Source of the DNA: a virus
IMG/VR virus record: IMGVR_UViG_3300037193_002936
Location: 1-41,649 of that record
Length of the DNA: 41,649 nucleotides
Strand: one strand, 5' to 3'
A program made the translations under genes and the position numbers. Below the pieces are notes generated by a model. The model made no database searches. It saw only the letters and a program-made list of their open reading frames with translations, and was not told where the DNA came from. This document shows positions 38,152 to 41,342 of this stretch, piece by piece. The number at the start of each line of letters is the position of its first letter. The stretch's first letter is position 1.

Positions 38152-38383
38152 ACGCAACTTCCAAAAAATCCACACTTAACATTTTATAAACATTGAAATT
38201 TTTTAATACCTTCATCGGACGGCTTCTAAACTATTTATTGTATGGCTACACCCATCCACTCGGGCTCCGGCTGACCGTCCCTTGTAACTCTTTTGCTTTA
38301 AGGTGATGATCTCACCTTTTTTTATCCAGAACCACTATTTTTTTTAAGCAAATGCAGGATCATTTAAATAATTACGTGTGCTT
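38152..38383. other. Gap of 232 bp ahead of the helicase gene
   Basis: Contains the terminator at 38300-38323, AT-rich tracts on both sides, and a long-range complement GGACGG...CCGTCC (38216-38280) that could enclose a structured RNA. A 10-codon frame (MATPIHSGSG) lies inside. No TAnnTTTG box was seen before the helicase. Candidate region for a promoter, an attenuator or a replication origin; the sequence does not decide. Confidence 0.4.
38300..38323 (+). terminator. Rho-independent terminator after the accessory series
   Basis: Plus strand: 7-bp stem AAGGTGA/TCACCTT, loop TGATC, then five further T. It closes the accessory gene series and separates it from the replication helicase. Confidence 0.75.
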
Positions 38384-39904
38384 ATGAGACTCCAGGTAAA
38401 AGACATCGCGGAGTCACTCGGGAAACTACCAGCCCAGGCTGTTGAAATAGAGGAGACCGTTTTAGCTGCTATTATCTTAGAAAAACAGGCAATCAAAAAG
38501 GTTGTTAAGCTTCTTCATCCAGAACATTTTTATACAGAAAGTCATCAGGAAGTTTACAAGGCTATTTTAAGTCTGCATGCCCACAACAAGCCGATCGACA
38601 TGAGATCGGTTGTGCATGAACTCAAATCAACAGGCAAATTAGAGCTCGTTGGAGGCCATTTTTTCATAGCTGAACTCACAACAAAAGCAAATTCATCCGA
38701 AAACTTAGAGTATCACTCCCAAATTATCATTGAGTGCTACATCAAACGCGAAATTGCAATCATCGGAGCCAGACTCAATCAGAAAGGATTCGAAGATGGC
38801 GCTGATCCGCTCCAGGTTCTCGACGAAAACATTGAAAAACTTCAGTTGCTCAAGGAAAAGTCGATCAATGAGCCACTTGAAGAGAAAATTAAGACGCTTT
38901 GGAAGGAGCGCATGGTCGTCGAGCAGCCTCCGGATGAAGAAGTTCTCATATCTATCGACCAAGTGCCTGTCGCTACCGTCGGAAACCACTCTTTACTCAC
39001 CGGAAAAAAGAAATCTCGCAAGTCCCTCTTCATCGTGTGGCTCGCAAAACTATTTTTTAAGCAAAACAATGCTGTTGCTGATGAGATGATGCTCTTTGAT
39101 ACTGAGCAAGGGAAGCCACATGTATGGAAAATACTTAAAAAGATTAAAAAAATAACAGGTTTCGACATCCCGGTATTCTTCTTACGCGGCATGAGTCCAA
39201 AAGATCGTCGTGATTTCATCCTCAACACAATCAAAATGTGGAAGAAGAAACCAAAAATGATCATCATCGACGGTATCAGAGATTTAATGAGCAACATTAA
39301 CGATGCTGACGAGACCACTGAACTCATTGTGTGGCTGGAAGACATCACTATCCATTACCACATCCATATCATCAATGTCCTTCACCTCAACAAAACCGAT
39401 GACAATGCGCGGGGACACATTGGGACAGAACTCGCCAACAAAGCGGAGATCACATACGAACTCAAAAAAGATGAAGAGAAAGGATGCACAATCGTGCGAT
39501 GCGAATCGTCGCGTGAAAGAGACTTTGACACCTTTGCTTTCACCCATGGTGTGGATGAACTACCGGAAGTTTTAGGAACCCCCATCAAAGGAAGTTCGAT
39601 ATCTGTTGATCAACGTAAAAAATTACTGATCGCCGCCTTTGAGGAAGGGGCCATGAAATATGCCGATGTCATCAACGAATTGAAGGCGCAATTCGATGTA
39701 GGAAAAAGCAAGGCAGAGTCCCTACTCCGCGAATTCCAACGCATGGGATGGATCGTTAAAAGCGGAGCGCCCCGAGATCCCAAGGCACTTTACAAATTAA
39801 TGATCTCGGAAAACGGACATGATGCGCCGCCCCCCATAGAAGAACCTATTCAACAACAACAGCTACAATTCCATGAAGAAGAAGACGAACCACTCCCTTT
39901 CTGA
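38384..39904 (+). CDS. Replicative helicase: DnaB N-domain fused to RecA/RepA-type ATPase
   Basis: 506 aa from the ATG at 38384; a GTG 6 bp upstream is an alternative. Residues 15-115 match the DnaB N-terminal helical domain (EIEETVLAAIILEKQAI; DMRSVVHELKSTGKLELVGG). The ATPase has the Bacteroidota-type Walker A LLTGKKKSRKS (residues 204-214, with Arg before the Lys), FDTEQ (238-242), Walker B MIIIDGIRDL (292-301) and GHIGTEL. A winged-helix-like part (residues about 400-475) is followed by an acidic tail ending EEEDEPLPF, which resembles an SSB tip. It unwinds DNA at the fork; no primase domain is fused. Confidence 0.82.
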   Translation: MRLQVKDIAESLGKLPAQAVEIEETVLAAIILEKQAIKKVVKLLHPEHFYTESHQEVYKAILSLHAHNKPIDMRSVVHELKSTGKLELVGGHFFIAELTTKANSSENLEYHSQIIIECYIKREIAIIGARLNQKGFEDGADPLQVLDENIEKLQLLKEKSINEPLEEKIKTLWKERMVVEQPPDEEVLISIDQVPVATVGNHSLLTGKKKSRKSLFIVWLAKLFFKQNNAVADEMMLFDTEQGKPHVWKILKKIKKITGFDIPVFFLRGMSPKDRRDFILNTIKMWKKKPKMIIIDGIRDLMSNINDADETTELIVWLEDITIHYHIHIINVLHLNKTDDNARGHIGTELANKAEITYELKKDEEKGCTIVRCESSRERDFDTFAFTHGVDELPEVLGTPIKGSSISVDQRKKLLIAAFEEGAMKYADVINELKAQFDVGKSKAESLLREFQRMGWIVKSGAPRDPKALYKLMISENGHDAPPPIEEPIQQQQLQFHEEEDEPLPF

Positions 39905-40277: not shown

Positions 40278-41342
40278 ATGAATCATGTGGCTCATACCTT
40301 CAAACCACTCTCTCTACTCAGCCTTTGCACAGGACTGCGTGCACTCGAAAGAGGTATTGCAAGAGCAGTTGCAACATTACGGGGATCATCAGAAAGTGAT
40401 CAATGGAGAGAAGAAGACATTCTCAAACCTGCCGCTTATGTGGAGATCGAATCCATTGCCGCCTACAATCTGGTTGCGCAAATGGAGCAACGTGTACTGG
40501 CTCCCGCTCCTGTTTGGACGGACCTTAAAACATTCCCATGGCACGCTTTTCACGGAAAAATACACGTCCTCACTGGCGGATATCCATGCCAGCCCTTCAG
40601 CCAAGCAGGCCTACAACAAGGCATTCTTGACCCCCGTCACCTCTACCCTTACATCGAACACGGAGTCGATGCAGTTAGACCTGTTTGCTGCTTCTTCGAA
40701 AACGTCGCCAACCACCTCAATCTCGGATACCGAGAGGTCAAACATTCTCTGGAATCGCTTGGTTACGCGGTTAAAGAGGGAATATTCTCAGCGCAAGAGG
40801 TTGGCGCTCCGCACATTCGCAAGAGGCTCTTCATCCTTGCAGTGGCCAACGCCTACAGCGGTGAATCGCGTGAGGGACGAAGAAACTTTGCAGAAATGTT
40901 TGGAATACCGCAAGGTCAACGCCAACCAAAACACTGTGCCTCTTTATCTGGAAGAGACTGTGCGATTGTGGACAACACCCACGGTCAAAGGAAATTACAA
41001 TCGCAAGGGATTGTCCAAAGCATCGGGGGACGGCTTGATGACCCAAGTGAAGGAGTTGGCTTGGCCAACTCCTTCAGCGCGGGATTGGAGGAGTGGCAAA
41101 AGCAATCAACACAACAAAAACGCTCGACCACTCAACGAGGTAGTGATGAAAGAGGATGGCCCGCGCGACCAGGACAGTCTCAACACTCCTGGGAACACCC
41201 TCGTCTTGAATCCCGCATGGGTTTTACAGCTAATGGGTACGACTTTACAGAAGACCTTCTTCGCATGGCGGGAAATGCCGTCGTTGAACAAACAGCAGAG
41301 CTCGCCTTCCTCACCCTTCTCCAAAAACACAGACTAACATGA
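40278..41342 (+). CDS. Cytosine-C5 DNA methyltransferase
   Basis: 354 aa. Motif I-like LSLCTGLRALERG (residues 14-26), a motif II-like acidic turn in AAYVEIE (52-58), motif IV GGYPCQPFSQAG (100-111, catalytic Cys104), motif VI FENV (140-143), motif VIII QEVGAPHIRKRLFI (173-186) and motif X MAGNAV (330-335). Residues 187-315 replace the usual recognition region with short repeated pieces (ANAYSG, DNTHGQ, ANSFSA) and a polar stretch. This region is exactly where another long frame runs. It probably methylates cytosine in the phage's own DNA, protecting it from host restriction or marking it. Confidence 0.87.
   Translation: MNHVAHTFKPLSLLSLCTGLRALERGIARAVATLRGSSESDQWREEDILKPAAYVEIESIAAYNLVAQMEQRVLAPAPVWTDLKTFPWHAFHGKIHVLTGGYPCQPFSQAGLQQGILDPRHLYPYIEHGVDAVRPVCCFFENVANHLNLGYREVKHSLESLGYAVKEGIFSAQEVGAPHIRKRLFILAVANAYSGESREGRRNFAEMFGIPQGQRQPKHCASLSGRDCAIVDNTHGQRKLQSQGIVQSIGGRLDDPSEGVGLANSFSAGLEEWQKQSTQQKRSTTQRGSDERGWPARPGQSQHSWEHPRLESRMGFTANGYDFTEDLLRMAGNAVVEQTAELAFLTLLQKHRLT
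40285..41337 (+). CDS. Overprinted frame inside the methyltransferase gene
   Basis: 350 codons in the +1 frame, starting 7 bp after the methyltransferase ATG and stopping 5 bp before its stop. It has recognisable family features: SLADIHASPSAKQAY (residues 96-110), LDLFAASSKTSPTTS (131-145), WNRLVTRLKREYSQRKRLAL (156-175), three WPTP-like units (WPTPT 187, WTTPT 229, WPTPS 260) and LNPAWVLQLMGTT (308-320). I recall this protein type from many phages, also lying across cytosine methyltransferase genes. Its function is unknown. Two open frames of this length over the same DNA are rare by chance, so I rate it likely real. Confidence 0.65.
   Translation: MWLIPSNHSLYSAFAQDCVHSKEVLQEQLQHYGDHQKVINGEKKTFSNLPLMWRSNPLPPTIWLRKWSNVYWLPLLFGRTLKHSHGTLFTEKYTSSLADIHASPSAKQAYNKAFLTPVTSTLTSNTESMQLDLFAASSKTSPTTSISDTERSNILWNRLVTRLKREYSQRKRLALRTFARGSSSLQWPTPTAVNRVRDEETLQKCLEYRKVNANQNTVPLYLEETVRLWTTPTVKGNYNRKGLSKASGDGLMTQVKELAWPTPSARDWRSGKSNQHNKNARPLNEVVMKEDGPRDQDSLNTPGNTLVLNPAWVLQLMGTTLQKTFFAWREMPSLNKQQSSPSSPFSKNTD

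Follow-up and report, generated by a model that had tools for sequence, protein, structure and literature searches.

The window, which comprises the 41,649 nucleotides of the viral record IMGVR_UViG_3300037193_002936, holds two co-extensive reading frames on its plus strand, one coding for a C5-cytosine methyltransferase (alpha) and the other, in the +1 frame, for a protein with features of its own (beta). The initial annotation had proposed that a complete second gene is overprinted on the methyltransferase, and its description of the locus was borne out: the frames encode 354 and 350 amino acids in a +1 relation and overlap over 1,053 nt, motifs I, IV, VI, VIII, and X could all be located in the alpha sequence, and the +1 protein carries the segments WPTPTA, WTTPTV, WPTPSA, LDLFAASSKTS, and LNPAWVLQLMG. 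The pairing of the three WxTP units with VANAYS, VDNTHG, and LANSFS in alpha also holds, with the tryptophan codons at 40843, 40969, and 41062. The features of the locus are the following:

40278..41342, plus strand: alpha ORF, C5-cytosine methyltransferase of 354 aa (frame 0), with a homologous internal start GTG at 40287
40285..41337, plus strand: beta ORF, overprinted 350-aa protein of the phrog_1008 family (+1 frame)
40278..40289, plus strand: overlapping start region ATGAATCATGTG, with the alpha ATG at 40278 (or GTG at 40287) and the beta ATG at 40285
40317..40334, plus strand: alpha motif I, LSLCTG, from sequence
40575..40601, plus strand: alpha motif IV, GGYPCQPFS, with the catalytic Cys, from sequence
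40689..40706, plus strand: alpha motif VI, CFFENV, from sequence
40803..40838, plus strand: alpha motif VIII, GAPHIRKRLFIL, from sequence
41256..41285, plus strand: alpha motif X, LLRMAGNAVV, from sequence
40285..40839, plus strand: beta N-terminal region, MWLIP...WLRKW...GRTLK...LDLFAASSKTS, overlapping alpha motifs I-VIII
40843..40860, plus strand: beta WxTP unit 1, WPTPTA, read as ANAYS in alpha
40969..40986, plus strand: beta WxTP unit 2, WTTPTV, read as DNTHG in alpha
41062..41079, plus strand: beta WxTP unit 3, WPTPSA, read as ANSFS in alpha
41206..41238, plus strand: beta motif-IX-like element, LNPAWVLQLMG (family consensus GKLNPRWVETLMGLPVGWT)

When the synonymous codons of the window's methyltransferase were shuffled 20,000 times, the open +1 run had a mean of 117 codons and a maximum of 340, and was never as long as the 351 codons observed. 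Upstream of the pair, at 38378-39904, lies a GTG-started ORF of 508 aa with similarity to DnaB-like replicative helicases (phrog_19, 1.1e-20).

Alpha is a C5-cytosine methyltransferase, with motifs I, IV, VI, VIII, and X and the Rossmann fold present. Searches of both proteins against phage databases had been recommended, and for the frame-0 protein they returned phrog_363 (2e-41), in addition to PF00145 (8e-23). In its AF2 model, which resembles M.HaeIII and M.HhaI, the Rossmann core reaches a pLDDT of ~90 (blocks mostly 85–95) and the motif X helix is confidently modelled. The structural matches of alpha include PDB 8yf3, a DNA cytosine C5-carboxymethyltransferase with bound carboxy-SAM. Residues 221–286, however, score below 50, and therefore no recognition domain is predicted there; this middle part of alpha is apparently an unconserved linker, disordered according to the model. 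Motif IX is likewise missing from the chain, as no window in 70 alphas scored above the shuffled level, so that neither this motif nor a target-recognition domain was found in alpha.

The corresponding search with the window's beta returned phrog_1008 (3.9e-10), a phage family labelled 'DNA methyltransferase', which is matched by 69 of 70 beta homologues (best 7.9e-38). Pfam, NCBIfam, and PDB, including the methyltransferases of the latter, gave no match to beta, and its identification as an HNH or other known domain was rejected on these grounds. The predicted model of beta is too poor for a structure search (mean pLDDT 57, pTM 0.25), and its fold lends no support to a role as a methyltransferase subunit. 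Members of the family hold from one to eight WxTP modules per protein, as well as the element GKLNPRWVETLMGLPVGWT, which resembles motif IX of M.HhaI, RKLHPRECARVMGYPDSY. Upon scoring for canonical motif IX, the best window coincided with this LNPxWVxxLMG element in 54 of the 70 betas, although in the window's own beta it falls elsewhere; the same scoring revealed no comparable site in the 70 alphas. A profile comparison relates the beta element to its counterpart in actinophages at 94% probability. However, when canonical motif IX-X was compared with the beta and actinophage profiles at the profile–profile level, significance was not reached, and the correspondence between the LNPxWVxxLMG element and motif IX is therefore suggestive.

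Conservation of the second frame was assessed in relatives chosen without regard to it. IMG/VR was scanned with a profile of the methyltransferase frame only, which yielded 80 loci; the analysed set, which also took in the window and the two relatives closest to it, comprised 82 loci (75 non-redundant). This broader, alpha-based set was used since a search for close relatives with the window's beta gave two loci. Frequent second-frame stops in relatives had been named beforehand as evidence against a second gene, but the +1 frame is open over nearly the whole gene in all 82 loci and ends near the methyltransferase stop, while the +2 frame holds 5 to 23 stops. Over the ~170 codons of motifs I-VIII, the 75 non-redundant loci contain 2 stops in the +1 frame versus the 320 expected from codon permutation, and the open +1 length is individually significant in 73 of them. 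Simple stop counts inside HMM hits were set aside because the alignments overrun the ORF ends. L264, a canonical M.HhaI-like phage enzyme (2.4e-69 to M.HhaI) with motif IX in frame 0, has no +1 ORF; its +1 frame holds 12 stops, and the longest run is 58 codons.

Both frames are under purifying selection. Fourfold-synonymous differences in frame 0 amount to 0.13 in the 5' half and 0.15 in the 3' half of the gene, versus 0.33 in the genes that flank it in the same 19 genome pairs, and this more than twofold reduction, together with the near-absence of stops, upholds the proposal of a complete second gene under selection. A codon-permutation test for excess conservation of the +1 protein, with both frame-0 proteins left unchanged, gave Stouffer z values of 13.0 and 10.1 across 34 disjoint pairs, the z over the beta N-terminal region being positive in 34 of 34. 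Controls in the wrong frame and in flanking genes exhibit a small positive bias (Stouffer z 3–5), and therefore it is the effect size that counts, and not the sign alone. Absence of purifying selection in the second frame, the other outcome that would have spoken against the gene, is contradicted by the beta third positions, which vary at conserved beta residues. Thus, 73 of 75 loci retain the beta segment W-I-[ILV]-P through synonymous codon changes, with third positions varying freely, while alpha has T, N, S, H, C, I, or Y at the overlapping residue. In all 73 homologues, the second beta residue, a tryptophan, is overlapped by a frame-0 GTG (52) or ATG (21), and beta begins with ATG in 67 of these 73, which implies that the starts of the two proteins are only a few bases apart. 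These overlapping, conserved start codons support the translation of both frames, as far as this can be read from sequence.

The balance between the two frames changes along the gene. According to column scores, conservation is highest in frame 0 over most of motifs I-VIII and over motif X, and highest in the +1 frame at the start, around beta residues 61–75, and at the WxTP units; in the segment between these units, neither frame is conserved. In the first WxTP unit, beta-frame positions 1 and 2 are 87–100% conserved (except for the second residue, which is variable and whose first base is at 62%) and the wobble position about 40%. Similarly, nucleotide identity at conserved beta residues of the 3' half is 0.90, 0.94, and 0.64 at beta codon positions 1, 2, and 3. 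The initial annotation had also suggested that the repeats in the variable region of the methyltransferase mirror the units of the second protein, with selection possibly shaping both. Constraint on both frames is indeed observed, but in the 3' half it acts mainly on the +1 frame, and the repeated alpha pieces are for this reason interpreted as largely a by-product of the conserved WxTP modules.

The module segment also behaves differently from the rest of the gene. In 16 pairs of loci with less than 6% difference in motifs I-VIII, this segment differs by 27% on average and by up to 58%, and its length can change greatly within such a pair (e.g., 115 versus 217 codons), while the motif X part is again just 2–5% different in several of these near-identical pairs. 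At the sequence level, an exchange of recognition domains would be expected to leave such a pattern.

Scans with the beta profile, covering 80 viral and 80 bacterial loci (one genome per species), found the alpha methyltransferase in all 160; none of these beta-selected loci holds a methyltransferase-free copy of beta. The two ORFs overlap by more than 60 nt in 154 of the 160, and beta is in the +1 frame in all 154. Other arrangements of the same parts are found in actinophages. Frame 0 ends after motif VIII in Samy, Eesa, Colucci, and Bartimeaus, where the ORF of the beta family holds the modules along with motif X and an element of the EWMMG type, whereas in Babsiella and Phinally several modules, the EWMMG-type element, and motif X are in one chain with motifs I-VIII. 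The methyltransferase profile phrog_116 is matched in its C-terminal part by the Samy and Bartimeaus betas, and all of these forms come together in phrog_1008. In Mycobacterium phage Babsiella, gp54/gp55 (L009:439-2286, 779-1282) carry PTP-type modules partly in frame 0 and partly in +1 of one and the same gene, as if these had moved between frames. This gene context supports beta as part of the enzyme more strongly than the motif IX resemblance does; beta looks like the missing recognition part of the methyltransferase, and not like an unrelated passenger.

The two frames are almost certainly conserved coding sequences, and their overlap is not attributed to chance. A non-functional +1 shadow, with conservation reflecting that of the methyltransferase plus codon bias, might be invoked given that the alpha motifs are highly conserved, that conservation of a protein can seemingly extend to its +1 shadow, and that the permutation test is slightly positive in wrong-frame controls. 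However, a shadow or chance ORF was rejected on account of the stop counts (2 versus 320 expected), the suppressed synonymous change, and the wobble of beta third positions where alpha residues vary; beta ORFs moreover persist past the frame-0 stop in Samy and Bartimeaus, and the motif-IX-bearing L264 has no +1 ORF, all of which makes this explanation highly improbable. Programmed +1 ribosomal frameshifting after motif VIII, as the only entry into the +1 frame and leading to a single trans-frame methyltransferase, would fit the split actinophage genes, whose frame-0 ORF ends just past motif VIII with the remainder of the enzyme in +1. In window-type loci, on the other hand, the +1 frame is open and constrained upstream of that junction, from its own conserved start, and in the window a return to frame 0 through a further shift would be required to reach motif X; at the junction itself, only module codons are conserved and there is no conserved slippery sequence. 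The constrained 5' half and the lack of such a site disfavour frameshifting as the sole use of the +1 frame, and it is considered improbable.

Beta could also be an independent protein, such as a regulator, an inhibitor, or an anti-restriction factor, overprinted on the methyltransferase and acting outside the enzyme. Its lack of a recognisable Pfam domain or a confident fold is compatible with this, as is an N-terminal half with no counterpart in known split methyltransferases. Nevertheless, beta never occurs without the methyltransferase in the 160 loci, its modules and motif-IX-like element are inside the methyltransferase chain of some actinophages (and accompanied by motif X in the split ones), and its module segment is swapped in cassette fashion like a recognition domain, so that an independent role appears rather unlikely. 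The locus instead probably encodes both polypeptides of a single split C5-cytosine methyltransferase within one stretch of nucleotides, and a fairly likely division of labor is that alpha would be catalytic and beta responsible for recognition. Under this model, alpha would contribute the catalytic Rossmann domain (motifs I-VIII) and the motif X helix. Beta would initiate at its own ATG, a few bases from the alpha start, and consist of an N-terminal region with no assigned fold, from one to eight WxTP modules, and the motif-IX-like element. We infer that both frames are translated, that the WxTP modules act as exchangeable target-recognition modules, that alpha and beta physically assemble into the active methyltransferase, and that this enzyme modifies the phage's own DNA, protecting it against host restriction.

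In its broadest form, the proposal is that of a widespread and ancient class of phage methyltransferases, composed of two obligate subunits encoded on the same nucleotides, one catalytic and the other of exchangeable specificity, where a single cassette swap replaces the modules while both frames stay open. The chances for and against this generalization seem evenly balanced. If correct, few same-strand gene overlaps in double-stranded DNA phages would match these in size and breadth of conservation, and phage enzymes annotated as single 'DNA methyltransferases' would represent one half of a two-part enzyme, with phrog_1008 as the hidden half. This would explain the disordered look of their recognition region and would call for caution in annotating or expressing one frame alone. 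The family would also provide an unusually well-sampled natural case of long dual coding, suited to measuring overprinting, constraint, and module exchange over many genomes.

At least 75 distinct relatives of the phage enzyme show the same arrangement, annotated only as 'DNA methyltransferase', and no description of this methyltransferase overlap was found in the open-access literature. Betas of the same family, in the same +1 phase, are present in Escherichia phage K1G (gp34/gp35), Xanthomonas phage PhiXhv-28, and Paenibacillus phage Leyra (61/62), whose records annotate both overlapping ORFs but describe no second protein of distinct role. These betas are shorter and start near or after motif IV, whereas window-type betas start at the methyltransferase start. 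For Pseudomonas phage PMG1 (L265:1406-2167), the label 'DNA methyltransferase' is given to the +1 (beta) frame alone, and the catalytic frame is left unannotated.

Another protein hidden out of frame within a phage methylase gene is the ShiLan domain, an HNH endonuclease (PMC11855218). Unlike this mobile insertion, the overlap in the window spans the core gene and is common to the whole family sampled, and Pfam detects no ShiLan-type HNH domain in the beta frame. An element resembling that described in actinophages was observed in Staphylococcus phage CUB-EPI_14 (L260:2585-3067), where an HNH endonuclease ORF (PF01844, 2.3e-5) lies out of frame in a C5 methyltransferase gene. A different +1 ORF of about 140–165 codons overlaps the methyltransferases of Streptococcus phage MM1 (ORF14, L262:1460-1885) and Lactococcus phage CHPC148 (L261), both of which hold motif IX in frame 0 despite the +1 ORF. 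This ORF carries the segment SDILEE.VDE.YFLS, which sits in frame 0 in L260 and L264, and is possibly a second, independent frame transposition.

In the multispecific methyltransferases of the Bacillus phages SPbeta and phi3T, exchangeable recognition modules are arranged in tandem from motif VIII to motif IX. The locus described here, with one to eight WxTP units per beta and its cassette exchange, may resemble them. However, the modules of the Bacillus phage enzymes are in the enzyme's own frame, while those of the window are in the overlapping one.

The closest parallels are the two-polypeptide C5 methyltransferases. The two genes of M.EcoHK31I overlap in different frames, and M.EaeI is presumably a two-polypeptide enzyme of the same kind. 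M.EcoHK31I holds motifs I-VIII and X on its large polypeptide and only motif IX on a second, smaller one, whereas in M.AquI motifs I-VIII are on one polypeptide and the distal variable region with motifs IX-X on the other (PMC3404938). The window's locus is like the former in having motifs I-VIII and X on alpha, and may be so in having a candidate motif IX on the second polypeptide; our claim is that it would work like a split C5 methyltransferase, with no claim of membership in the M.EcoHK31I family. It differs from M.EcoHK31I in that the conserved modules are in the +1 protein, while the recognition domain of M.EcoHK31I is predicted in the large subunit, and in the co-extensive overlap (1,053 nt) with overlapping starts. 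The split actinophage forms, such as those of Samy and Bartimeaus, share the layout of M.AquI; unlike M.AquI, the window's enzyme keeps motif X on alpha, and beta reaches back over all of alpha. The overlap would thus belong to an enzyme of the two-polypeptide M.AquI/M.EcoHK31I type, unusual for its full co-extensive overlap.
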